IMG/VR virus record: IMGVR_UViG_3300034062_003529
Coordinates: 1 to 22,039 of that record
Direction: 5' to 3' (one strand)
DNA length: 22,039 nucleotides
DNA from: a virus
Of this stretch, positions 1-13,409 are shown piece after piece. Position numbers and translations under genes: made by a program. How positions within the stretch are numbered: position 1 is the first letter of the stretch; each line of letters starts with the position of its first letter. The notes beneath the pieces were generated by a model. That model saw nothing but the letters and a program-made list of their open reading frames with translations. It was not told where the DNA came from and ran no database searches.

Positions 1-234
1 TACGAGTTCGCGGAAGGTCATCGCATCGGATACGAGGCCGGGCTCCGGGCGGGAAGTCTGCCGGACGGCGAGGTTGCGAGGGTGCTGCTTCCGTTGGGCG
101 TGACGGCACTGAGTAAAGTTGTTGACGGTCTCGGGAAGCATTTCGGGGATGATTTGAGAATGATGCAGCGGGGCGACTGGTTAATTTTCATTAAGCCGAA
201 CATCGAAGCGCAGACACCGCGAGGAAATCAATGA
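1..234 (+). CDS. C-terminal part of an unknown phage protein
   Basis: Frame 1 is open from the first base of the window and ends at TGA 232-234, giving the last 77 residues of a protein whose start lies to the left. The visible part has a short Gly/Ala segment (GYEAGLRAG), a mixed hydrophobic stretch and an acidic-basic tail. I recognise no domain. Its stop overlaps the next start as ATGA (231-234), so it is probably translated together with the DpdA-like gene. A small terminase subunit often lies upstream of the large subunit, but nothing in these residues shows that this is one. That the frame is coding rests mainly on its openness and on the coupled overlap. Confidence 0.55.
   Translation, partial: YEFAEGHRIGYEAGLRAGSLPDGEVARVLLPLGVTALSKVVDGLGKHFGDDLRMMQRGDWLIFIKPNIEAQTPRGNQ
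221..225 (+). promoter_or_regulatory. Shine-Dalgarno site for the DpdA-like gene
   Basis: GAGGA lies 5 bases before ATG 231 and 8 bases before a second ATG at 234, so either methionine could be used. It is one of the few clear ribosome-binding sites in the window, where most genes rely on overlap coupling. Confidence 0.5.
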
Positions 235-986
235 TGGAAACCACGACAGATACTCTACGAGCGGTTGATCTGCCGCGCCTGGTTGGGCCTTGTAAGCGTC
301 CATTGATGGTCATGCCTGCAAACCATTCATCGGCGATCATCCATTACTGGTCCGGCAAGTATCCCGGCAAACTGGGATGGTTGATCGGCCCTACAGCCCT
401 CCCCAAAACCAAGCTCCGGCCGTGGATGCCGTTTGCTCTCGACAACGATGCGTTTAGCGCATGGAGCAAGGGCCGCGAGTGGAGTGAATCGGCGTGGGTG
501 GGGATGTTGGACAGCGTAAAACTTTCGGGAATGGCACCTCGATGGGTGCTAGTGCCCGATGTCGTCGCAGATCGGGCCGCAACTCTGGCAAAGTGGGAGC
601 AATATGAACCAGTGGCAGCGCGCTACGGGTGGCAGCTCGCCATTGCTGTGCAAGATGGAATGACTCCCGCAGACCTTCCCGAGGGTGCGGTGATATTCGT
701 CGGGGGCACCACCGAATGGAAATGGCGCTCGCTGCCGATGTGGTGCGCGACTGGCCGCCGGGTGCATGTCGGTCGAGTAAATGAAGTTGCGAAACTGTTT
801 GTGTGTGAGCGCCTCGGTGTGGAGTCAGTGGACGGCACCGGATGGATGCAAGGCACTGAAACAGGAAGGCAGGCCAAAGCGCTTGGAGCGTGGCTGGCTG
901 GATCTCTCGTCGATCATGACTGTTTCGATTTTGCCCGTGCCATGGATAACGCCCAGGTGCGCGGGTATTGGCCCAACACGCGATAG
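231..986 (+). CDS. dpdA: DpdA-like 7-deazaguanine DNA transglycosylase
   Basis: The 251-residue protein looks like a phage member of the DpdA family, relatives of tRNA-guanine transglycosylase (TGT). These enzymes exchange guanine in DNA for a 7-deazaguanine precursor such as preQ0 and protect phage DNA from restriction. Visible motifs, in order: ALDNDAFSAW with D71 (matching the TGT general acid/base Asp), VPDVVAD with D110, VQDGM (140-144), VGGTTEWK (157-164, like the TGT substrate-pocket GG loop), HVGRVN (179-184) and SVDGT with D201 (candidate nucleophile). The spacing fits short DpdA forms. TGT's zinc-binding Cys cluster is not evident. It is coupled to the upstream gene and lies 49 bases before terminase. 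No preQ0 synthesis gene (folE, queD, queE, queC) is in the window, so the precursor would come from elsewhere in the phage or from the host. The substrate (DNA, not tRNA) is inferred from family membership. Confidence 0.82.
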   Translation: MMETTTDTLRAVDLPRLVGPCKRPLMVMPANHSSAIIHYWSGKYPGKLGWLIGPTALPKTKLRPWMPFALDNDAFSAWSKGREWSESAWVGMLDSVKLSGMAPRWVLVPDVVADRAATLAKWEQYEPVAARYGWQLAIAVQDGMTPADLPEGAVIFVGGTTEWKWRSLPMWCATGRRVHVGRVNEVAKLFVCERLGVESVDGTGWMQGTETGRQAKALGAWLAGSLVDHDCFDFARAMDNAQVRGYWPNTR

Positions 987-1016
987 CCACAAAAATTTGT
1001 GGCCGAATCGGATTCG
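986..1016. promoter_or_regulatory. Two adjacent inverted repeats between dpdA-like gene and terminase
   Basis: GCCACAAA-AA-TTTGTGGC (986-1003) is a perfect 8-bp palindrome. It is followed at once by CGAATC-G-GATTCG (1004-1016), a 6-bp one. CCACAAA recurs at 1018-1024. No T-tract follows, so an intrinsic terminator is unlikely. An operator, or an RNA structure over the terminase leader, fits better. The function is inferred. Confidence 0.4.
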
Positions 1017-1035
1017 TCCACAAACAAATTGACCA

Positions 1036-2646
1036 ATGACCGACCTCGACCAGCTCCGCGCCCTTCTGGCATCGAAAGCATGGCGAATGGCGAATCTCTA
1101 TCTCATCCTCGACGAGGACGGGAAGACGATTCCGTTCCGAATGCGAGGCGAGCAGGAGCAGTATCTGGCCGAGCGTCACAACCGGAACTTCATTCCCAAG
1201 GCGCGGAAGTTAGGTGTGTCCACCGCCATTGTGCTGGCGAACCTGGACGATTGCCTGTTCAACGCGAACCTCGCCGCCGGGATCATCGACCTCACCAAGG
1301 ACGATGCCTTCGCCAAGCTCGCGATGGCCCGGTTCGCGTGGGAGAACGGACACCTGCATCCTGATCCTGCCATCGGTGCGCTCTGGCGCTGGATCCGCAA
1401 GGCCAACCCGCTCGACAAGGATGCGGGCGGGGAGATGACCTGGGCGAACGGATCGAAGATCACGGCGGGGGTGGCCTTCACGGGCCGCACGCCGCAACGC
1501 CTGCACATTTCCGAGTTTGGGCCGATCTCCGCGAAGTTCCCGGCGAAAGCGACCGGGATCAAGCGAGGTGCGTTCAACTCCCTGCCGCCCGGCGGGATCA
1601 TCGACATCGAAACCACGATGGAAGGAGGGCAGTGGGGTGAGTGCTATGCCATCTTCCAACTGTCACTGGAGGCCGCAAAGCTCGACCGCCTGACTGCCTT
1701 AGACTGGAAGCTCCACTTCTTCCCATGGTGGGGCCATCCAAGCTATGTGCTGCCGGGCGTCAAGCCCTCACGGGCTGAGACGGCGGAGTATTTCGCCGGG
1801 CTTCGCGAACGCTACGGCATCGAGATTCCCCTCGACCGCCAGGCGTTCTACGAGCGCAGGAAGGCGGAGCAGGGGGAGGAAATGTGGCAGCAGTTTCCCA
1901 GCGTCATCGAAGAGGTGGATCGCCAGGTCGTGCCGGGCCAGATCTACCCGGAGATGAAGCGGATCCGCGCAGAGAAGCAGGTCGGCATCTTTTCTCCCGA
2001 AAAGGGATATCCCATGTTCACCGCATGGGATCTCGGATCCTCCGACAACATGGCAGGCTGCCTGATCCAGCCCGCCGGGAAGGCCCACAACTTCCTCGAC
2101 GGAGCCGTGGGCGAGGGCGCCGGAGCCGGGGGTGTGGCCGAGGTCATTCGGTCATGGGAGCGGACGCATGGCGAGATTCTCGCGCATTTCCTCCCGCACG
2201 ATTGCGAGATCACCGACAAGGGGAGTGGCAAGACCTACCTCCAGCAATTGGTCGAGGCCGGGATCCCGAGGAAGAGCATTGTCGTCGTCCCGCGCATTCC
2301 CGACCTCTGGGTCGGCATCGAGGAGGTCCGCCGCATCCTGCCAAACTGCTGGTTCCACGCAAGGATGGACGAGCCCATCTACTCCGAGACCGGCGCGAAG
2401 CTCCCGAGCCTGGTGGGGCGTCTCGAGGGATACAGGAAAAAGCTCGACCAATCCACCGGCATTCTGCGCTCGGTCCCGGTGCATGACCTGTGCAGTCACT
2501 TTGCGGATTCCGTCCGCACCTACGCGGAGGCGCTCAGTCGAGACTTGGTTCGCGGGTCCGCCGTCCGCTTCAAGAAGGCGACGGTCGTAGACGGGTTCCG
2601 GGGTGAGGAGCGCCCGGTGCGGAAAAACGTCCAGATCCTGTCATGA
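1036..2646 (+). CDS. terL: Terminase large subunit
   Basis: The 536-residue protein is the DNA-packaging ATPase/nuclease that docks on the portal. The N-terminal ATPase domain shows KARKLGVST (55-63), a Walker A variant of the KARQLGxST type found in many phage terminases, without the usual GK pair. Walker B is RLHISEFG (155-162) with catalytic E160, followed by a coupling segment around DIETTMEG (190-197). The C-terminal RNase H-like nuclease begins at MFTAWDLGSSDN (327-338) with D332. It continues at HFLPHDCE with D389 and ends at SHFADSVRTYAEA with H488 and D491. The length is normal for the family. There is no obvious Shine-Dalgarno site before ATG 1036; the leader carries two inverted repeats. 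The stop overlaps the next start as ATGA. No small subunit is recognisable in the window. Confidence 0.93.
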   Translation: MTDLDQLRALLASKAWRMANLYLILDEDGKTIPFRMRGEQEQYLAERHNRNFIPKARKLGVSTAIVLANLDDCLFNANLAAGIIDLTKDDAFAKLAMARFAWENGHLHPDPAIGALWRWIRKANPLDKDAGGEMTWANGSKITAGVAFTGRTPQRLHISEFGPISAKFPAKATGIKRGAFNSLPPGGIIDIETTMEGGQWGECYAIFQLSLEAAKLDRLTALDWKLHFFPWWGHPSYVLPGVKPSRAETAEYFAGLRERYGIEIPLDRQAFYERRKAEQGEEMWQQFPSVIEEVDRQVVPGQIYPEMKRIRAEKQVGIFSPEKGYPMFTAWDLGSSDNMAGCLIQPAGKAHNFLDGAVGEGAGAGGVAEVIRSWERTHGEILAHFLPHDCEITDKGSGKTYLQQLVEAGIPRKSIVVVPRIPDLWVGIEEVRRILPNCWFHARMDEPIYSETGAKLPSLVGRLEGYRKKLDQSTGILRSVPVHDLCSHFADSVRTYAEALSRDLVRGSAVRFKKATVVDGFRGEERPVRKNVQILS

Positions 2647-3107
2647 CTCCAGTCCTTCGAGCTGCTGATTGGCATTCCCGACAACCCGAGTGCGAACCGT
2701 TCAGCGAGGCGCTGCTAGCGCATCTGCATTGCGGGTATGTCATTGCAACGCCCGAGGTCTTCCTGCTTTTCCGGCCAGTCGATTCCCGCGCCGACACCTT
2801 CCTTTTCGATGACCCATGGCATGAATTCGAGGAGTCCGAGTGCGACACATGGCACTGCTATTTGGCCGCCGGTGACCTGACCCAGTTCCATCAGTTTGTC
2901 CCGTTCGACCTGCCGTTTTTTTCCTATGTCCGAAAAAACCGCTTGCGCGTCAGACCTTTGACGCAAAGCCGAGTTCTTTATGGGCGGAAAACAGAAACTC
3001 GCGAAACAGCAGGCGAAGGCCAACCTTTTGTCGCAGCAGTCCATCCGACAGCAGGCGGCGGCCAACCGACAGGCGCAAAGGATTGCGCAACAGGCAGCAG
3101 CCGCTGA
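2643..3107 (+). CDS. Small protein between terminase and portal, unknown function
   Basis: The 154-residue ORF starts at an ATGA overlap with the terminase stop. Its body (1-105) is rich in aromatic and acidic residues, for example FDDPWHEFEE and DTWHCYLAAGD, and leads into VPFDLPFFSYVRKNRLR. That layout resembles small proteins often found between terminase and portal in podoviruses, some of which are called acetyltransferase-like. I cannot confirm any enzymatic motif. Residues from about 113 overlap the next gene by 128 bases in another frame and look like low-complexity read-through of it. The true end may therefore be shorter, or the overlap may be real. A 32-nt repeat (2939-2970) lies inside the coding frame, just after a T7 run (2916-2922) and an A6 run (2932-2937). 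Confidence 0.6.
   Translation: MTPVLRAADWHSRQPECEPFSEALLAHLHCGYVIATPEVFLLFRPVDSRADTFLFDDPWHEFEESECDTWHCYLAAGDLTQFHQFVPFDLPFFSYVRKNRLRVRPLTQSRVLYGRKTETRETAGEGQPFVAAVHPTAGGGQPTGAKDCATGSSR
2939..2970. repeat. 32-nt hairpin repeat, copy 1
   Basis: This matches 6410-6441 with one mismatch in 32 bases. It folds as outer GCTT/AAGC (2941-2944 with 2966-2969), a small internal loop, then inner GCGTCA/TGACGC around a 6-base loop. It is preceded by an A run and ends 9 bases before the start at 2980. There is no T-tract on the + strand; read on the - strand, a T6 run follows the hairpin. The role (promoter, operator, processing site or terminator) is unknown. Confidence 0.75.
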
Positions 3108-5571: not shown

Positions 5572-6392
5572 GCGAGGAAGCCATGACGATTGCGCCGACG
5601 GGGGAGGCTGCGACCTCGACCGTCATGACGACCGGGACCGCCGACATCACAACAACCGCACCACCGTCCATCTTTTCGGACGGCTACCGCTTCGCCGCAG
5701 GGTGGGCTGATTCGGTGGGCGAGCCGACCCTGTCGAAGTTCGACGGCAAGGAGGTCAACGACCTGGCCAAGGCGTATGCCAACCTCGAAAAGCTGGCCAG
5801 CCGCAAGACCGAGGGCATGGTTCGCATCCCGACCGAAACCTCGACGCCCGAGGAGATCGCCGCCTATCGAACCGCCGTCGGCGCTCCCGAGGATCCCACT
5901 GGCTACACGGCCACCTTCCCCGAGGGAATGGAATCCCATGCCGAGGCGCTGAGTCCGTTCCAGGAGATCTTCCACAAGCACAGTGGGAGCCCAGCGCTCT
6001 ACCAGGAGGCGGTCGCGAAGTGGGCGCAGATCGAGGCCGAGCAGCTTCAAGCCGTGCAGTCAGCCGAGCGGCAACTGGTCAACGAATGGGGGGACGATTT
6101 CGAGTATCGAATCGGGGACATCGAAGCACGCACCAAGGACGTCCTCGACCTGAGTCAGCCGTTTCTTTCGCGCGTCGATGTCCTGCGAGCCCTCGACCTG
6201 TTCGCCGCCGATTTCCGGCCCGATTCCACCGGCATGGATCGACCCAGTGCGGCCACATCAAGCCTTGAGGACCAGATCTCGCAGATCTTGGCAAGCCCCA
6301 GCTATCGAAGCGGTCAGGACAAGGGTGCGAGGGATCGACTCCATGCGCTCTATCGCGAACAGGCCGCCCGCGAGGCGGCGACGAGGCGCTGA
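5568..6392 (+). CDS. Putative capsid scaffolding protein
   Basis: This 274-residue acidic, largely helical protein lies directly before the major capsid gene, the usual place of the scaffold in T7-like phages (gp9 position). The first 35 residues are Thr/Ala-rich and disordered. A conserved-looking segment follows: RIPTETSTPEEIAAYR (86-101) and VGAPEDPTGY (104-113), a signature seen in many phage scaffold-like proteins. The rest is predicted helix, and the end is basic (LYREQAAREAATRR), as expected for a scaffold tail that contacts the capsid protein. There is no protease motif. It starts at an ATGA overlap. The call rests on position, composition and the signature. Confidence 0.75.
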   Translation: MSEEAMTIAPTGEAATSTVMTTGTADITTTAPPSIFSDGYRFAAGWADSVGEPTLSKFDGKEVNDLAKAYANLEKLASRKTEGMVRIPTETSTPEEIAAYRTAVGAPEDPTGYTATFPEGMESHAEALSPFQEIFHKHSGSPALYQEAVAKWAQIEAEQLQAVQSAERQLVNEWGDDFEYRIGDIEARTKDVLDLSQPFLSRVDVLRALDLFAADFRPDSTGMDRPSAATSSLEDQISQILASPSYRSGQDKGARDRLHALYREQAAREAATRR

Positions 6393-6571
6393 GTATTTTC
6401 CGAAAATTTCCGCTTGCGCGTCTGACCTTTGACGCAAAGCCCTGATCAATAGTTCTTCAACTGGCCCTCTGAAATGGGGACAACCCGACGAAGGCACGCA
6501 TCTCAAGCGCGGCCCGATCCCGGACAACCGAAGCGGCGGAGCAATCCACCTCTCAAACCCATTTCACCATC
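6393..6571. other. 179-bp leader of the capsid gene
   Basis: This is the longest gap without a protein gene in the window. It opens with TTTTCCGAAAA and copy 2 of the 32-nt hairpin repeat (6410-6441). The remaining 130 bases to ATG 6572 show no convincing sigma70 boxes, no clear stem-loop and no Shine-Dalgarno site. A long untranslated leader for a highly expressed gene, with transcription starting near the repeat, is a reasonable inference. Confidence 0.4.
6410..6441. repeat. 32-nt hairpin repeat, copy 2
   Basis: This is the second copy of the element at 2939-2970, differing only by T for A at 6423. That change breaks the top pair of the inner stem but leaves GCGTC/GACGC and the outer GCTT/AAGC intact. 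It lies 17 bases after the scaffold stop and 130 bases before the capsid start. Flanking TAT-TCCGAAAA sequence is also shared with copy 1, apart from small gaps. Confidence 0.75.
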
Positions 6572-7486
6572 ATGGCACTTTCCGTTGCTCACGGTATCCC
6601 CGAAGAATTCCGTCGCGAATTCACCAACAACCTCGAACACGAGGTCCAGCAGCTCCTGTCCAAGTTCTCCAGCCGCATCAAGGTCGAGGGCTTCGAGGGC
6701 AAGGAGAACATCTACAACTCGCTCGAACCGCGTTCGTTCAAGACGCGCACCGGGCGACTCCAGCAGTCCGCTCCGACCGAGGCCGAACTGCACGCCCGCA
6801 AGCTCGTCAAGGTTCCGTTCTACGACCAGGCGATCTTCGACAAGTGGGACGCCGAGTTCCTCGGCAAGCTCGCGCTCCCCGACTCCGAGACCATCCAGGC
6901 CATGAAGGCCGCCTACGCCCGCCTCATCGACACCGAGGTGTGCAAGGCCGCCGATGCCACGGTCTACGGGGGTGAAGAGCCCTACGTCACCGCCATCGAC
7001 CTGCCTGCGGACCAGAAGGTCAACGTGCAACTCGGATCCTCGCCAGCCGCCAACGTCGGCCTGACGCCGGACAAGCTGGTCAAGGCGATGCAGATCTTCG
7101 AGGAGAACGACATCTACCCGGAGGAGGAGGAGCTGATCCTCGCCATCAACCCGAAAGCGAAGCAGGACTTGATCAGCTACGTCAAGGCCGCCGGAAACGA
7201 CGTGTGGGCGAACATGATCGCCCGCTGGCTGGAAGGTCGTGACGCCAAGCTCTTCGGCTTCACGCCCATCGTCACCAACCGCATCGTGAACACGACCGGG
7301 AACATCGACCAGTGCTTCGCCTACTCGGCCAAGCGTGGGATCTACATGGCCCCCGAGAAGCTCGAAATCCACATGGATGTCCTGCCGACCCAGCAGCACG
7401 CCCTCCAGATCTCGGCCTACGCGACCCTCGGGTTCATGCGCCGGTTCGAGAAGGGTGTCGTCATGATCCCCTGTGACCGAGACTGA
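6572..7486 (+). CDS. Major capsid protein
   Basis: The 304-residue protein would be the HK97-fold shell subunit. It resembles the phage capsid family common in podovirus-like phages. After an N-terminal arm (EEFRREFTNNLEHEVQQLL), residues 40-110 carry the extended-loop region (PTEAELHARKLVKVPFYDQ). Residues about 110-220 form the helical and peripheral part. The C-terminus has the typical sequence FGFTPIVTNRI, then YSAKRGIYMAPEKLEIHMD and ISAYATLGFMRRFEKGVVMI. It is preceded by a 179-base leader with the hairpin repeat. It is followed 31 bases later by a decoration-like gene and then by a strong terminator, which together look like a separate high-output transcription unit. No Shine-Dalgarno site precedes ATG 6572. 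Confidence 0.9.
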   Translation: MALSVAHGIPEEFRREFTNNLEHEVQQLLSKFSSRIKVEGFEGKENIYNSLEPRSFKTRTGRLQQSAPTEAELHARKLVKVPFYDQAIFDKWDAEFLGKLALPDSETIQAMKAAYARLIDTEVCKAADATVYGGEEPYVTAIDLPADQKVNVQLGSSPAANVGLTPDKLVKAMQIFEENDIYPEEEELILAINPKAKQDLISYVKAAGNDVWANMIARWLEGRDAKLFGFTPIVTNRIVNTTGNIDQCFAYSAKRGIYMAPEKLEIHMDVLPTQQHALQISAYATLGFMRRFEKGVVMIPCDRD

Positions 7487-7501
7487 TCAACCTCAACGCT
7501 G

Positions 7502-7507
7502 AAAGGA
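7502..7507 (+). promoter_or_regulatory. Shine-Dalgarno site for the decoration-like gene
   Basis: AAAGGA lies 10 bases before ATG 7518 in the 31-base gap after the capsid gene. This gives the gene independent ribosome loading, unlike most genes here. Confidence 0.5.
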
Positions 7508-7517
7508 CACCAATTCT

Positions 7518-7991
7518 ATGGCTAACCTAGACACTGCCGAGCGCACCGCTCAACTCGAAAGCACCTACAAGCGAAACGTCTCTCCGTCCTACCGGGCGTT
7601 GCAAGCTCCGCTGCGGATCGCTTCCTTTGGGACGATCACCCTCACCGGTGATTCGGACGCTGTCAACGACACGATCACCCTTGGCAACCTGGGTTGCGGC
7701 GGGCGGATCATTCCCGAGCTTTGCCGCATCGTCGGCACGGCTGGAACCGTTGGCGGGACGTTCAAGGTCCAAAAGGTCAATGCTGCCGGAACCGCGACCG
7801 ACATCACCGGGACGGCAGCAATCTCAGTGGATGAGACTGCTGTTGCGTTCACTCGAAAGGCCGGAGCCGCAACGGGAGCGGACTTTGAAGCAACCGACTA
7901 CCTCCGGTTGCTCATCACCGCAGCTTCCGCGCTCACCGCCACCGACACGGTCGAGCTGTATCTGGCCTTCTCGACCGACGAGACGGTCTGA
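7518..7991 (+). CDS. Putative capsid decoration or head-associated protein
   Basis: The 157-residue protein directly follows the capsid gene and shares its transcription unit, ending at the intrinsic terminator. After about 30 residues (RNVSPSYRALQAPLRIASFG) the sequence becomes strongly beta: alternating hydrophobic segments rich in Thr, Gly, Ala and Asp, such as VNDTITLGNLGCGGRIIPEL and TDTVELYLAFSTDETV. This is the pattern of small beta-sandwich head-decoration or head-fibre proteins. No exact family is recognised; the call rests on position, size and secondary-structure pattern. One Cys pair (C60 and C68) could be structural. Confidence 0.6.
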   Translation: MANLDTAERTAQLESTYKRNVSPSYRALQAPLRIASFGTITLTGDSDAVNDTITLGNLGCGGRIIPELCRIVGTAGTVGGTFKVQKVNAAGTATDITGTAAISVDETAVAFTRKAGAATGADFEATDYLRLLITAASALTATDTVELYLAFSTDETV

Positions 7992-8001
7992 CCCACCTCA
8001 C

Positions 8002-8043
8002 GCCCCAGGCCGGAACGACCACCGGCCTGGGGCTTTCTCCTTT
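8002..8043 (+). terminator. Intrinsic terminator after the capsid genes
   Basis: GCCCCAGGCCGG (8002-8013) pairs perfectly over 12 bp with CCGGCCTGGGGC (8022-8033) across the 8-base loop AACGACCA. The T-rich tract TTTCTCCTTT (8034-8043) follows. It lies 10 bases past the stop of the decoration-like gene. It is the strongest terminator in the window and would separate abundant head-protein transcripts from tail genes. Confidence 0.88.
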
Positions 8044-8047
8044 CAAC

Positions 8048-8120
8048 CGCGGGATCGTCTAGCCTGGCAGGATACCTGGCTCATAACCAGGCGGCGCGGG
8101 TTCAAATCCTGCTCCCGCAA
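8048..8120 (+). tRNA. tRNA with CAT anticodon (Met; initiator-like features)
   Basis: A full cloverleaf is visible. The acceptor is CGCGGGA (8048-8054) with TCCCGCA (8113-8119), the D loop is AGCCTGGCA, and the anticodon stem CCTGG/CCAGG encloses CTCATAA with CAT at 8082-8084. The T arm is GCGGG-TTCAAAT-CCTGC and the discriminator is A 8120. CCA is not encoded (TCC follows). Positions 1 and 72 are C and A, the unpaired end that marks bacterial initiator tRNA. The anticodon stem has only two of the three initiator G:C pairs (29-41 is T-A), and pair 11-24 is T-A, as in elongators. Initiator, elongator Met and lysidine-modified Ile identities are all possible. Confidence 0.88.
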
Positions 8121-8131
8121 TCCTTCCGGCA

Positions 8132-10717
8132 ATGACCAACACCGATCTCGCGAACATGGCGCTCTCCCGGCTTGGGGAGCCCCGCATTACGGACATTGCC
8201 GAAAACTCTCCTGCGGCGATTTCCTGCCGCGAGAACATCGAACTGGTCCGCGACTCGCTCCTGCGCTCTCACCCGTGGAACTTCGCCATGGGTAGGGCCA
8301 CGCTCACCGCCGGGGCCGCTCCTCCCTTCGGCTGGGAGTATTCCTACCCGCTCCCCGCTGACCTTCTGCGGGTTCTCACGTTCAACGGCGTGCAGGCGGC
8401 CATGTGCGCCGCCGACTTCACCATCGAGGCCGGAAAGCTGCTGGCCCACGTCGAGGAGGCCAAGATCACCTACGTCCGTCGGGTGACCGACCCGACCCTC
8501 TTCGACCCGCTCTTTGTCGAGGTGCTGGTCCTCCGTCTCGCCTCGGCCATCGCCCTGGATGTCACCTCCTCGACCGAGAAGCGGGACGCCATGGAGGTGC
8601 TGGCCGATCAACGGATGAGAGGCGCGACGTTTGTGGATGCCGGAGAGCGCCGCGTCCAGCTCGTCGACGGGCTCGAAAGCGTGAGGATGCGACATTACGG
8701 GACCGTGGGGGATTGCCTCCAGAGCCCGATTTGGTCAGCCGGGACCAACGGATGGTCGCCGGTATTTGCCTCCGTCTCCCACAACAACGGCAAAGTGTTG
8801 CAGATCATCAACTGGATCGGAGGGAGTGGCGACAAGCCTTCGACCGGGTATGTTGGCGCAAATGGCATCGTTTCCAGCATCAATGACGCGACCCTCATCC
8901 CTGACGGATTGTCCGGGAGTCAGGGAGAAGACGGATGGACTCCAGTTTTTGCTGTGGAGTCCGATGTCGAGCGGCGCGTTTTGAAAGTCGTTGATTGGAC
9001 CGGCGGGCAGGGAACAAAGCCTGACATCAATGTATGGGTGGGGGCGAGCGGGTTCGTGACAAGCATCGCGTCTGCGGTCAACATTCGCGGGCCGCAAGGG
9101 TTGTCGGGACCATCGGGGAATTCGATCACCGGCCAAACAGGACCAGCCGGACCAGCCGGACCAGCAGGACCAGCCGGACCAGCAGGAGCGGATGGGGACA
9201 GTGCATACGAGGTCGCGGTTGCCAACGGTTTTGTCGGAACGGAAGAGGAGTGGCTCGACTCGCTGATTGGCCCGGTGGGTGACGCAGGAGAAGATGGGTG
9301 GACTCCCGTTTTTTCCGTGGAGTCCGACCTTGAAAGGCGCGTTTTGAAAGTCGTCGATTGGATTGGCGGGCAGGGAGCAAAGCCTGACATCAACGTATGG
9401 GTGGGGTCAACGGGCTTTGAGACATCCATCGGAAGTGCCGTTGACATTCGCGGATCTGCTGGCGCACAGGGAGCGCAGGGCGAGCAGGGTTTGCAAGGTG
9501 TGCAGGGGGATCAGGGTGTGCAGGGGAATCAGGGACCGGCGGGTGCTGCGGGACCGAACCAAGTTTCAACTGCTACGTCCACCGATATTTCCGGCATCCT
9601 CAAGGGGGCTAGCGGATCGGTCGCTCAAGCTATTGCCGGGACTGATTATATTGCCACAAACGACTCGCGCCTTTCCGACTCCCGCACGCCAACCTCGCAC
9701 GCTCATGGGAACATCACCAACGCGGGCGCGATTGGTTCGACCTCCGGGCTGCCGATCAAGACCGGCGCGTCGGGAGTGCTTGAGGCCGGCGCTTTCGGAA
9801 CCTCTGCGGGACAGTTCGCGGAAGGAAACCACACTCACTCGGCCTTCACCGGAGACTCCGGCTCGGGTGGTGCTGCGGGTTTCGTTCCCGCTCCTGCTGC
9901 CGGGGATGCGGTGGCTGGAAAATACCTCGACGCGGATGGGACGTGGACGGTTCCTCCGACCGGGGGAGGGGTTTCGGACGGCGACAAGGGCGACATCACC
10001 GTCTCGGCTTCGGGGGCGACTTGGACCATCGACAACGACGCGGTCACCTATGCGAAGATCCAGAACATCTCCGCGACCTCACGAGTCATCGGTCGCAAAA
10101 GCAGCGGCTCTGGCGATGCCGAGGAATGCACGCTTTCGGAAATCCTCGACTTTGTCGGCAGTGCGGCCCAAGGGGACATCCTCTACCGCGGTGCATCGAC
10201 CTGGACGCGACTGGGCGCTGGAACCTCCGGCCAATTTCTTCGAACGAATGGAGCAGCGGCAAATCCATCCTGGAATTCCGTTCCCGTCGAAACCGGAGTA
10301 ATTACCTCGAACTATACTGACTCGACCGGAACGCTTGGGAACGTCACCGGAATGTCCTTTTCCTTGGCGGCAAACGAGCGTGTAACCGCAATCTTTTCGG
10401 GATTGTGGGGCACGCAAACGACGAACTCGGGATTCCGTTATGATATAACGGGGCCAGCATCGCCGACCTATGTGCTTTACAACGTCGCGCACGGAATCAC
10501 GCAGACCGCGTTCCGTTCGGGCGATGGAGCGACTGCATTCAGCACTGCCTTCGTCGAGGTGAGCGGTAATACCGCGCTGTACCTGCCTGTGACAATCCAC
10601 CTGCACGTGGTCAATGGTGCCAGCGCGGGAACGGTTCAACTTCGCATGGGCGGCGAAACTAACGGCGTCACCTTTACCCTCTACCAGGGCTTTACCCTTC
10701 AGCTTTTCCGATTCTGA
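8132..10717 (+). CDS. Tail adaptor (gp11-like)-collagen-tail fibre fusion protein 1
   Basis: The protein has 861 residues. Residues 1-185 match the tail tubular protein A/gp11-like adaptor: [28 protein letters not shown] (39-52), PPFGWEYSYPLPADLLR (64-80) and ITYVRRVTDP (112-121). This dodecamer connects portal and nozzle. The rest is fibre-like. A roughly 54-residue module (DGWTPVF..WxGGQGxKPD) occurs three times (206-260, 267-320, 388-441), the last two nearly identical. Collagen-like Gly-X-Y tracts lie at 319-355 and 441-474, and DSAYEVAVANGFVGTEEEWL at 356-375. SDSRTPTSHAHG (515-526) is a common tail-fibre motif, and a beta-rich C-terminus ends in LQLFRF. No Shine-Dalgarno site precedes the start, which lies 11 bases after the tRNA. 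A clear paralog with a different distal end lies at 11133. Confidence 0.85.
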   Translation: MTNTDLANMALSRLGEPRITDIAENSPAAISCRENIELVRDSLLRSHPWNFAMGRATLTAGAAPPFGWEYSYPLPADLLRVLTFNGVQAAMCAADFTIEAGKLLAHVEEAKITYVRRVTDPTLFDPLFVEVLVLRLASAIALDVTSSTEKRDAMEVLADQRMRGATFVDAGERRVQLVDGLESVRMRHYGTVGDCLQSPIWSAGTNGWSPVFASVSHNNGKVLQIINWIGGSGDKPSTGYVGANGIVSSINDATLIPDGLSGSQGEDGWTPVFAVESDVERRVLKVVDWTGGQGTKPDINVWVGASGFVTSIASAVNIRGPQGLSGPSGNSITGQTGPAGPAGPAGPAGPAGADGDSAYEVAVANGFVGTEEEWLDSLIGPVGDAGEDGWTPVFSVESDLERRVLKVVDWIGGQGAKPDINVWVGSTGFETSIGSAVDIRGSAGAQGAQGEQGLQGVQGDQGVQGNQGPAGAAGPNQVSTATSTDISGILKGASGSVAQAIAGTDYIATNDSRLSDSRTPTSHAHGNITNAGAIGSTSGLPIKTGASGVLEAGAFGTSAGQFAEGNHTHSAFTGDSGSGGAAGFVPAPAAGDAVAGKYLDADGTWTVPPTGGGVSDGDKGDITVSASGATWTIDNDAVTYAKIQNISATSRVIGRKSSGSGDAEECTLSEILDFVGSAAQGDILYRGASTWTRLGAGTSGQFLRTNGAAANPSWNSVPVETGVITSNYTDSTGTLGNVTGMSFSLAANERVTAIFSGLWGTQTTNSGFRYDITGPASPTYVLYNVAHGITQTAFRSGDGATAFSTAFVEVSGNTALYLPVTIHLHVVNGASAGTVQLRMGGETNGVTFTLYQGFTLQLFRF
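8930..9091 (+). repeat. Direct repeat unit A (tail fibre module)
   Basis: These 162 bases encode residues 267-320 of the first adaptor-fibre protein. They are closely repeated at 9293-9454; the centre (GGCGCGTTTTGAAAGTCGT and following) is almost unchanged at DNA level. A third, more diverged unit is at 8747-8911. This points to recent duplication or ongoing recombination within the gene. Confidence 0.75.
9140..9187 (+). repeat. Tandem GGACCAGCN repeat encoding Gly-Pro-Ala
   Basis: Five tandem 9-base units, nearly identical (GGACCAGCC or GGACCAGCA), encode GPA repeats at residues 337-351 within the first collagen-like tract. The low sequence diversity makes it prone to slippage. Confidence 0.8.
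9293..9454 (+). repeat. Direct repeat unit B (tail fibre module)
   Basis: This is the second copy of the unit at 8930-9091, encoding residues 388-441. A collagen-like tract rich in Gln and Gly follows it. The two copies are 363 bases apart start to start, a whole number of codons, so unequal exchange would keep the frame. Confidence 0.75.
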
Positions 10718-11136
10718 TGACAGCAACAACCCACGATATTCTTTCTTTCGCATGGCCCAATCGAGGTGGGTGGCGAGTTTTCGGAGATGACATTACCGCC
10801 GGGGATGGCGGGCCAGTCCCATCCATGGCCGAAATCGAAGCGCATCGCGAAGCAACAGAAGAATCGCTAGCGGCGGCGCAACAACAGGCTAGCCTTCGAC
10901 GCTCCAAGCTCGCGCAACTCCGAGCTGATTGGAAGGCTCTTCCCGATTTCATCCGTGGCCCATTCCGGGATAAATTCGAAGCAGCCTCAAGGCTTCTCGA
11001 CGAGGGCGACGACGCGGCGGCAATCGCGCTTATTGAATATGCCGATTCGCCATCCTCTTTTACCTCTGATCAAATCGCGACTTTCGCCGCGACAAAGGCA
11101 ACGATGAGAGCAGGCATTGAAGCTATGTCCGCATGA
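10717..11136 (+). CDS. Small helical protein between the two adaptor-fibre genes
   Basis: The 139-residue protein starts at a TGATG overlap with the first adaptor-fibre gene and ends at an ATGA overlap with the second. The N-terminal 35 residues are beta-like with several Trp and Gly ([14 protein letters not shown]). Helices rich in Ala, Glu and Arg ([20 protein letters not shown]) follow, then a compact segment, [20 protein letters not shown], with [17 protein letters not shown]. The second half resembles small phage proteins encoded after fibre genes (residues then an aLd.GD..aA...I pattern), some of which act as fibre chaperones. That role is inferred mainly from the tight position between two fibre-bearing genes. 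No family is firmly recognised. Confidence 0.65.
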
Positions 11137-13409
11137 CCGAAACCGACATTGCCAACCGAGCCCTCTCCCTCCTCGGGGAACCGGCTATCCTGTCACTGGA
11201 CGACGGGACTGCGGCAGCTCGGGCGCTCGGAATCCACTACGAGCAGGTCCGGGATTCGCTCCTGCGATCCCACGCGTGGGACTTCGCCATCGAGCGGGTC
11301 GAGCTGTCGAGGGCCGCTGATGATCCGCCTTTCGGGTGGCAATACCAGTTCCCGCTCCCGGCAGACTTCCTCCGCCTCGAAACCTTCAACATGGTCGAGG
11401 CCGGGGCGTGTCAATCGTCCTTCGCCGTCGAAGGCGGGATGCTGGTGACCAATTCCTCCTCGGCCCAGATCACCTATGTGGCAAGGGTCACCGATCCGGG
11501 CCAATGGGACGCCCTCTTCGCGGACGTGTTGGCGCACCGTCTCGCCGCCGCGGCGTGCGTTCAGATCACGGGCAGCGATGGCCGAAAGCAGAACCTCGAC
11601 CGCCATTCAGAGCGCCGCCTCAAGGAAGCCCGCATGGTCGATGCCAACCAAGGCTTGAGGACGCCGGACCCGCTTGAGCGCGGGGCCATTGGACGGAATG
11701 TCCGCCCCATGAACGGCGACTTCGACCACGTCAGGACGGTCGTCGGCCCGCCCGGACCTCCGGGACCAGTGGGACCACAAGGACCAGCGGGTGGACCGCA
11801 AGGACCGGCGGGACCAGTGGGACCGCAAGGACCGGCGGGGGTGGGCTCGCTTTGGTTACAAGGCGAAGGCGCGCCTTCCTCGGGAGATGGAGGGGAGGGT
11901 GACTTCTGGCTCGACACGAACAGCGGCAACATCTACGGCCCGAAGGGCGGCGGCGGGTGGGGAGGTGTGGTCTTCAATATTGCCGAGGGTCAGCAGGGAC
12001 CGGCAGGACCGGCTGGTCCGCAAGGACCGCAAGGGCAGCAAGGGATTCAAGGAATCCAGGGTCAGATCGGGCCTGAGGGACCGGCGGGTCCGGCGAATTC
12101 CCTAAACGTCGGAAATGTTTCAGCGGTGTCCTACGACTCCAACGCTTACGGAGTGACCATCAGTGGAGCCCCTCCAGCTCAACAGCTAAACTTCGTGCTT
12201 CCGAGCGGACCTCCCGGCCCCATCGGGGCGCAGTATCAATTTTCAAGCGGCACATCAACTGCCACTGCGTTCAATCGGTTCTTGATCTTCAACAATGCAA
12301 CCTTCGCGAATATCACCGCGATCCTACTCAGCACGACCGACGACTATCTCATCGACCAGTCCGCATGGCTGGATTCGTTCGATGACAGCAGCAGTGCCAT
12401 TCGGGGGCAGATCCGCATCATCAAGAAAAATCAACCCGGAGTGCAACGCCTCTTCAACATCACCGGGGCGACGACGAGCATCACCGGAGGCAGGATTGTC
12501 TCGGTGACGCCAGTGTCCAGCGTCGGCACGATCAACGCCGGGGATGTCCTTGAAGTGGGTTTCAGCCGGACGGGGGACAAGGGGGAAGTCGGAGCGCAAG
12601 GACAGCAGGGGAATGCGGGTCCGGCGGGAGTTCAAGGCCCATCTTCTGGTATTCAACTGACCAGAACAACGGACGGGAACACGAATCCGTTCGGGACGAT
12701 TTTTTCCGTATCATCTGGGAGTCCGGCACCAGGAATAAGCTTCAACATTTTTTTCAACAGTGCCACGTTCATACCCGCAATCAAGTTGGCAGCGGGCGAC
12801 TACGTCAACGCCAGTTCGGCAACGACCCACATCTCGTTTGAGGTGGTATCAACATTTGACACAGGCACCGGGGCAATTGAAGTCAGTGCGAAAAATATCC
12901 AGGGGTCGTTCGGCTCAATCAACGCCGCGCATGGGTTCACCGTATCAAAGCGAGGAAACGATGGATTCGGAATCCTCACCGGGATGGTGACCCCCTATGC
13001 CGGAATGGCACTTCCTGCCGGGTGGCTCTGGTGCGACGGGTCGTCCGTTTCGCGCACGACCTATGCCGACCTCTTCACCGCCATCGGCACGACCTATGGG
13101 TCCGTCGATGCGTCGTCCTTCACCCTCCCCGACCTTCGTGGTCGCGTGGTCGCGGGGCGCGACAACATGGACAACTCTGTCGGCACGGGCGGAGGGGACG
13201 CTGGGCGACTCACGGCCGCATCTCTCGATGGTGACATTCTTGGGAATTGGGGCGGGGTAGAAACTCACTCGCACTCGATCACGCGCTCGTCGGCAAACAC
13301 CACAACCACTGGCGGCGGCGCGACTCGCGTCACCTCCGTCACGACTCCAACCGGAGGCGCGTCATCACTCCAGCCCACCATCATCCTCAACTACATCATC
13401 AAGACCTGA
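11133..13409 (+). CDS. Tail adaptor (gp11-like)-collagen-tail collar fusion protein 2
   Basis: The 758-residue protein is a paralog of the first fusion. Residues 1-190 repeat the adaptor motifs [28 protein letters not shown] (39-52), [17 protein letters not shown] (65-81) and [10 protein letters not shown] (113-122). Collagen-like Gly-X-Y tracts follow at 205-237, 286-320 and 481-503. Between the first two sits a [20 protein letters not shown] fibre segment (240-259). Two diverged beta modules (about 380-480 and 535-610) each lead into a Gly-rich turn. The C-terminal 140 residues are a phage tail collar domain: [20 protein letters not shown] (617-636), [16 protein letters not shown] (662-677), HSHS and the usual end [13 protein letters not shown]. 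Collar domains form trimeric fibre tips. The distal end is unlike that of the first fusion, so the two probably bind different targets. Confidence 0.88.
11745..11843 (+). repeat. Collagen-like coding repeat, GPQGPAG type
   Basis: These 99 bases are built from GGACCAGTG, GGACCGCAA and GGACCAGCG type units and encode residues 205-237 of the second adaptor-fibre protein. Similar tracts follow at 11988-12092 (residues 286-320) and 12573-12641 (481-503). Gly at every third residue supports a triple-helical shaft; one extra Gly at 221 breaks the register. Confidence 0.75.

Follow-up and report, generated by a model that had tools for sequence, protein, structure and literature searches.

Why should a phage carry a lone gene for a DpdA-like transglycosylase directly upstream of its terminase, and from where would the modified base for such an enzyme be drawn? 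These questions were raised by a viral DNA of 22,039 bases, referred to here as the window, which is an entire IMG/VR record and thus a fragment. An earlier note on this DNA had proposed that the phage may modify its genome with a host-derived precursor just before packaging. The explanation that we consider probable is that a compact enzyme of the TGT/DpdA superfamily replaces guanine in the DNA of the phage itself with a 7-deazaguanine drawn from a host pathway, and that its gene is carried as cargo in an exchangeable module between the terminase genes terS and terL.

The DpdA-Like Gene and Its Setting

The dpdA-like gene (positions 231–986, plus strand) was found to be an intact open reading frame of 251 amino acids, in which all the motifs named in the earlier note and its numbering of D71 and D201 were confirmed. 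The conserved part of the protein begins near residues 24–26, so the first 24 or so residues are less certain. As the note had described, terL (1036–2646, plus strand; phrog_2, E 1.8e-14) starts 49 bases downstream, counted from the dpdA stop codon, and the gene is coupled to an upstream gene, its ATG at 231 overlapping the TGA of the latter (232–234). A GAGGA sequence lies just upstream of this ATG. The upstream gene is represented in the window by its 3' part only (1–234, plus strand), as an open reading frame cut by the edge of the window, and searches of Pfam and PHROG gave no match for it. In contigs of the same species its full form starts with MTEINNTEP, is 93–100% identical over most of its length and lies between a 72-aa gene on the terS side and the cargo. 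The possibility that the 77-aa fragment in the window is a cut-off QueD was tested and ruled out, the longer form being likewise without a family. Since the window starts only 230 bases before dpdA, it is too short on that side to bear out the remark in the note that no preQ0 synthesis gene is in view. Farther downstream, two large structural proteins (8132–10717 and 11133–13409), which resemble each other in their N-terminal domains and contain collagen-like GPAGPAGP repeats, are probably tail or fibre proteins.

Family, Fold, and Active Site

The window protein matched phrog_15826, a family with no function, with an E value of 2.5e-29, and phrog_887 (queuine tRNA-ribosyltransferase) weakly (E 0.0064); no match was obtained in Pfam or NCBIfam. 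Its relatives, found at 62 viral loci, in 24 phage records and at 55 loci of bacteria and archaea, make up a compact family of about 190–250 aa, and some of them had already been labelled "DpdA-like tRNA-guanine transglycosylase" by SEA-PHAGES annotators. Among the carriers available as isolates are Erythrobacter phage R6L and Synechococcus phage Ssp-JY42. Twelve residues (D71, N72, P109, D110, Q141, G158, G159, W163, K164, H179, D201, and G202) were invariant in all 34 sequences compared. The dN/dS ratio was 0.057 for the window gene compared with L001, its nearest relative, and 0.044 for L001 compared with L028; the gene is thus under purifying selection and in use.

The structure of the protein was predicted with AF2 (pLDDT 85.9), and the model was compared with solved structures in the PDB. 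All of the 50 matches listed were TGTs, the best having a Z score of 14.5 and an rmsd of 3.6 over 212 aligned residues, at about 12% identity to the bacterial enzymes of Z. mobilis and E. coli. The relationship to TGT was detected only by fold and by profile–profile comparison: HMMER searches of PDB sequences with the single protein or with the small alignment A1 returned no TGT, and when A1 was aligned with a single E. coli TGT by hhalign, the match covered 21 residues and had no meaning, so that larger alignments were required for the comparisons that follow. Against 17 TGTs, hhalign gave a score of 34.4 (shuffled maximum, 22.8), and this sequence-profile alignment places D71 on D89 and D201 on D264 of the E. 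coli enzyme, in agreement with the active-site positions predicted in the note. Against six phage DpdA1 proteins, the score was 60.5 (P 2.3e-8), with 60 column-shuffled controls giving a mean of 13.6 and a maximum of 19.1. In the alignment with the DpdA of phage 9g, D71 fell on D72, D201 on D215, and H179 on H196, a conserved position that is missing in DpdA2 according to Hutinet et al. (PMC6884629). The three cysteines and one histidine that form the C-terminal zinc site of tRNA TGT were sought in the window protein sequence and no such motif was found; the compact family ends after the barrel.

In the phylogenetic tree, DpdA1 (100/99) and TGT each came out as a fully supported clade, with the compact family apart from both and only tentatively monophyletic with respect to TGT. 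The protein of L017 branched as sister to that of the window (86/88). In a plain sequence comparison, too, the family lies far from DpdA1 (phrog_887, E about 0.006). The assignment to the DpdA branch of the TGT fold made in the earlier note thus held for the fold and the active-site layout and failed for membership in the 9g-type clade: the window protein is DpdA-like and belongs to a separate compact family outside DpdA1. Its identity as a 7-deazaguanine transglycosylase is well supported.

Comparison with Known Transglycosylases

The phage DpdA of the 9g/CAjan type (phrog_887; PMC6884629) shares with the compact family the fold, the catalytic aspartates, the equivalent of His196 and the association with preQ0 genes. 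It differs in its greater length (about 310 aa as against 190–250 aa) and in having a CFH stretch where the compact family has VQDG, and the signatures FVGGTTEWK and HVGRVN are those of the compact family. The two types, separate in the tree, occur together in phages phiG7, Sonali, and R29Z, where the compact gene is accompanied by a canonical DpdA and complete preQ0 pathways; as an additional gene next to the canonical one, it may serve another function or an accessory one. Bacterial TGT has the TIM-barrel fold and the catalytic Asp pair in common with the window protein, whereas the latter lacks the zinc subdomain and is associated with phage DNA-modification contexts. Cui et al. reportedly distinguished DpdA3 and DpdA4 subfamilies in 2023; with regard to these, the compact-family profile gave no match in Cellulophaga phiST or HVTV-1 and one of only E 0.019 in CP220.

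Singleton DpdA phages, for example Salmonella phage 7-11 and Pantoea phage MED16 (PMC6884629, PMC8306585), likewise carry a transglycosylase without phage preQ0 genes, and a host precursor is assumed for them. The compact-family profile matched the DpdA of phage 7-11, whose DNA carries measured dADG (PMC6884629), with an E value of 9e-7. The 7-11 protein has LDNGAFSVW and VPDVIG in common with the compact family and is otherwise distant, lacking VQDG, GGTTEWK, and HVGRVN. The SEA-PHAGES proteins Sonali gp81 and GreaseLightnin gp55 are members of the same compact family (33–34% identity), in an actinophage branch in which no terminase slot was seen and of which Sonali also has a canonical DpdA. 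To our knowledge, a DNA modification has been measured for no member of the compact family. The compact gene is present in GreaseLightnin-type mycobacteriophages, whose host genus is without preQ0 synthesis (PMC6884629), and the DNA of the single-gene DpdA phage Orion is unmodified, so that some singletons may be idle or doing something else.

An Exchangeable Slot between terS and terL

A TerL protein 98% identical to that of the window was found in at least eleven contigs from other metagenomes. Blastn comparison of eleven such same-species contigs with the window aligned the left flank (1–201) at 95–100%, or only positions 1–71 in the case of L215, and the right side (975–3000) at 92.6–95.8%, while the segment 202–974 was left unaligned. 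This replaced segment corresponds to just the dpdA gene (allele A), and the eleven contigs have other content in its place. Six contigs carry an N6/N4 DNA methyltransferase (allele B; Pfam E 3e-25), two a PAPS-reductase/SspD-like protein (allele C; phrog_424, E 2.8e-45), two a 131-aa protein of phrog_12889 with no function assigned (allele D), and one a C5 cytosine methyltransferase (allele E; E 1e-24). At the junctions, the left boundary reads ...TTAAGCCGAAC and the right boundary (G)AACACGCGATAGCCACAAAAATTTGTGGC. The conserved right flank (975–1035) encodes the last codons, NTR-stop, that alleles A, B, and E share, and it holds an inverted repeat, GCCACAAA-AA-TTTGTGGC (986–1003). This repeat, at the right-hand boundary of the slot, is kept in all alleles and is possibly a recombination or regulatory site.

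The whole module was absent from a twelfth contig, L239 (TerL 99% identical), in which the 72-aa gene follows terS and is followed directly by terL. The bounds of the module are ATGACTGA at the start of the upstream gene and ATGACCGA at the start of terL; an exact 8-bp repeat at its ends was ruled out by this reading of the two sequences. The module was also absent from the genus-level relatives L227, L228, L231, L232, and L234. L001 and L028 carry a dpdA of 82% identity at a different locus; it follows a gene that has a relative upstream of terS in L227, and here too dpdA is movable cargo. In another genus-level relative, L229, a gene upstream of terS (1667–2296) was judged by eye to be cytosine-methyltransferase-like, and it possibly marks a second modification site near the terminase.

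The presence of different genes between near-identical flanks showed that the terS–terL site is an exchangeable slot with mostly DNA-modification cargo, its occupancy by dpdA in the window species being known from one contig. Phage morons and anti-restriction methyltransferases sit at variable loci and are likewise cargo swapped between stable core genes; here the site is one defined terS–terL position, and most of the cargos are enzymes that modify DNA, each by its own chemistry. The exchange of exactly the dpdA gene at this slot is new here and is the main novelty beyond the earlier note; no description of a terminase-side modification slot was found in open-licence papers. A broader reading, to which we give even chances, is that the population keeps a slot for chemical camouflage between its terminase genes, the occupant being swapped among a transglycosylase, N6/N4 and C5 methyltransferases, and a PP-loop enzyme that is possibly sulfur-modifying, so that one species would package differing base chemistries and spread its restriction risk. 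The slot offers a natural experiment, in which near-identical phages differ in one modification gene; their comparison would show what each modification gains against restriction and whether modification genes trade like interchangeable parts.

Genomic Association with preQ0 Synthesis and Precursor Supply

In relatives without canonical DpdA, the compact gene lies next to queC and queD or overlaps them, and in some cases queE is part of the group as well. The orders observed were queC-queD-dpdA (L031), queC-dpdA (L030, L050, L088, and L092), dpdA-queC-queE (L029), and queD-dpdA (L027 and L017, the latter being the source of the sister protein noted above), and these que-linked loci fall in the 22-row clade of the window (98/88). 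No canonical DpdA (phrog_887) was detected in the tested viral records among the que-linked relatives. A marine group has the order queD, nucleoside 2-deoxyribosyltransferase, dpdA; the middle gene (L040, 5655–6071; PF05014, E 1.5e-11) occupies the same place in L032, L035, L039, L044, L046, and L049, which suggests handling of free deazaguanine nucleosides. This compact, widespread transglycosylase family joins the small set of enzymes that may introduce 7-deazaguanines into DNA, and its que operons and deoxyribosyltransferase partner suggest substrates and assays.

The genomic link to preQ0 synthesis, present in relatives including L017, is absent in the window's own species. The search for que genes that the note had called for found no QueC or QueD in same-species contigs of 35.8 and 37.9 kb, nor in nine closer relatives on contigs of 28–51 kb. 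Terminal repeats were present in only three of the ten contigs tested, and most of these absences are therefore not calls from proven complete genomes. With no QueC or QueD on the longer contigs of the species, the simplest source for the window phage is a precursor provided by its host, and the lone enzyme with a host-derived precursor envisaged in the note is likely.

Proposed Mechanism and Alternative Explanations

In the mechanism that we propose, preQ0 or a close relative would be taken from the host queuosine pathway and would take the place of guanine in the replicated DNA of the phage through a double displacement of the TGT type. Such a mechanism is established for TGT. D201 would act as the nucleophile that holds the deoxyribose once guanine has left, and D71 as the acid/base residue. 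Expression in the late operon beside the terminase genes would mark the replicated DNA before or during packaging, and the mark would blunt restriction of the infecting genome. In sibling phages the slot is occupied by DNA methyltransferases or by a PP-loop enzyme, or the module is missing. The presence of two different DNA methyltransferases at the same site in siblings supports a role in restriction evasion and strengthens the link drawn in the note, by which the modification would presumably afford protection. From these data we infer that the substrate is DNA and not tRNA; the exact base and the late expression are likewise put forward as predicted features.

The note had further suggested that the modification could be tied to packaging. 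The terL adjacency recurs in L005/L014, L044/L046/L049, and L019, and in L005 the genes terS, dpdA, and terL all overlap. Strict conservation of this adjacency was ruled out, as the gene lies elsewhere in many relatives, and a physical link to packaging is thus unsupported beyond timing. The slot itself explains the adjacency of dpdA and terL in the window, and late-operon timing before packaging suffices.

Three other explanations were weighed against a DNA-modifying enzyme. A small TGT that puts 7-deazaguanine into host or phage tRNA, and so tunes late translation, would agree with the TGT fold, with the TGT-like Q-G stretch (VQDG) kept where DpdA1 has histidine, and with phiG7, Sonali, and R29Z already having a DpdA for DNA. 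We consider it unlikely, since the window protein lacks the C-terminal Cys/His zinc region, its profile similarity is far stronger to DpdA1 (60.5) than to TGT (34.4), the alternatives in the slot are DNA methyltransferases, and all 17 of the tested bacterial and archaeal genomes with a homologue have a TGT of their own. Still less likely is a paralogue with an accessory or regulatory role, which on its own would have little or no activity and would act as partner of a host or phage transglycosylase, in the manner of QTRT2, the non-catalytic subunit of eukaryotic TGT. The invariance of both catalytic aspartates in 34 sequences and the many relatives with no other transglycosylase detectable by phrog_887 argue against such a partner, while the coexistence with canonical DpdA in three phages is in its favor, as is the phiG7 copy (L064, 5935–6527), which is split into two overlapping frames. 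The homologue of SHIN8 is split likewise, and the two are either pseudogenes or expressed by frameshifting.

The slot and its gene might also be an assembly artefact, two phages having been joined in one contig, as dpdA was found at the slot in a single contig of the species. This is very improbable, because both junctions coincide with the break points of other alleles, and the dpdA frame ends with the flank-encoded codons of alleles B and E. The exchange of guanine in phage DNA by a compact transglycosylase thus remained the explanation that we prefer.

Association with PP-Loop Genes

PAPS-reductase/SspD-like PP-loop genes, of the same kind as slot allele C, repeatedly adjoin the compact dpdA (L003, 8670–9479; L069, 4589–5506; L065, 6397–7440; and L126, 4240–5361), and the two genes may belong to related modification chemistry. 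In Caballeronia and Paraburkholderia, a cassette was observed that consists of an SbcD-like phosphoesterase, an SbcC/Rad50-like ATPase, a compact DpdA-like protein, and a DndC-like PP-loop protein (PADLOC DndC, E 8.5e-45). This cassette occurs at about 20 or more loci (including L097, L109, L112, L114, and L119, around positions 6000–8500), with two copies in some genomes, and may be part of a prophage or an undescribed DNA-modification system.
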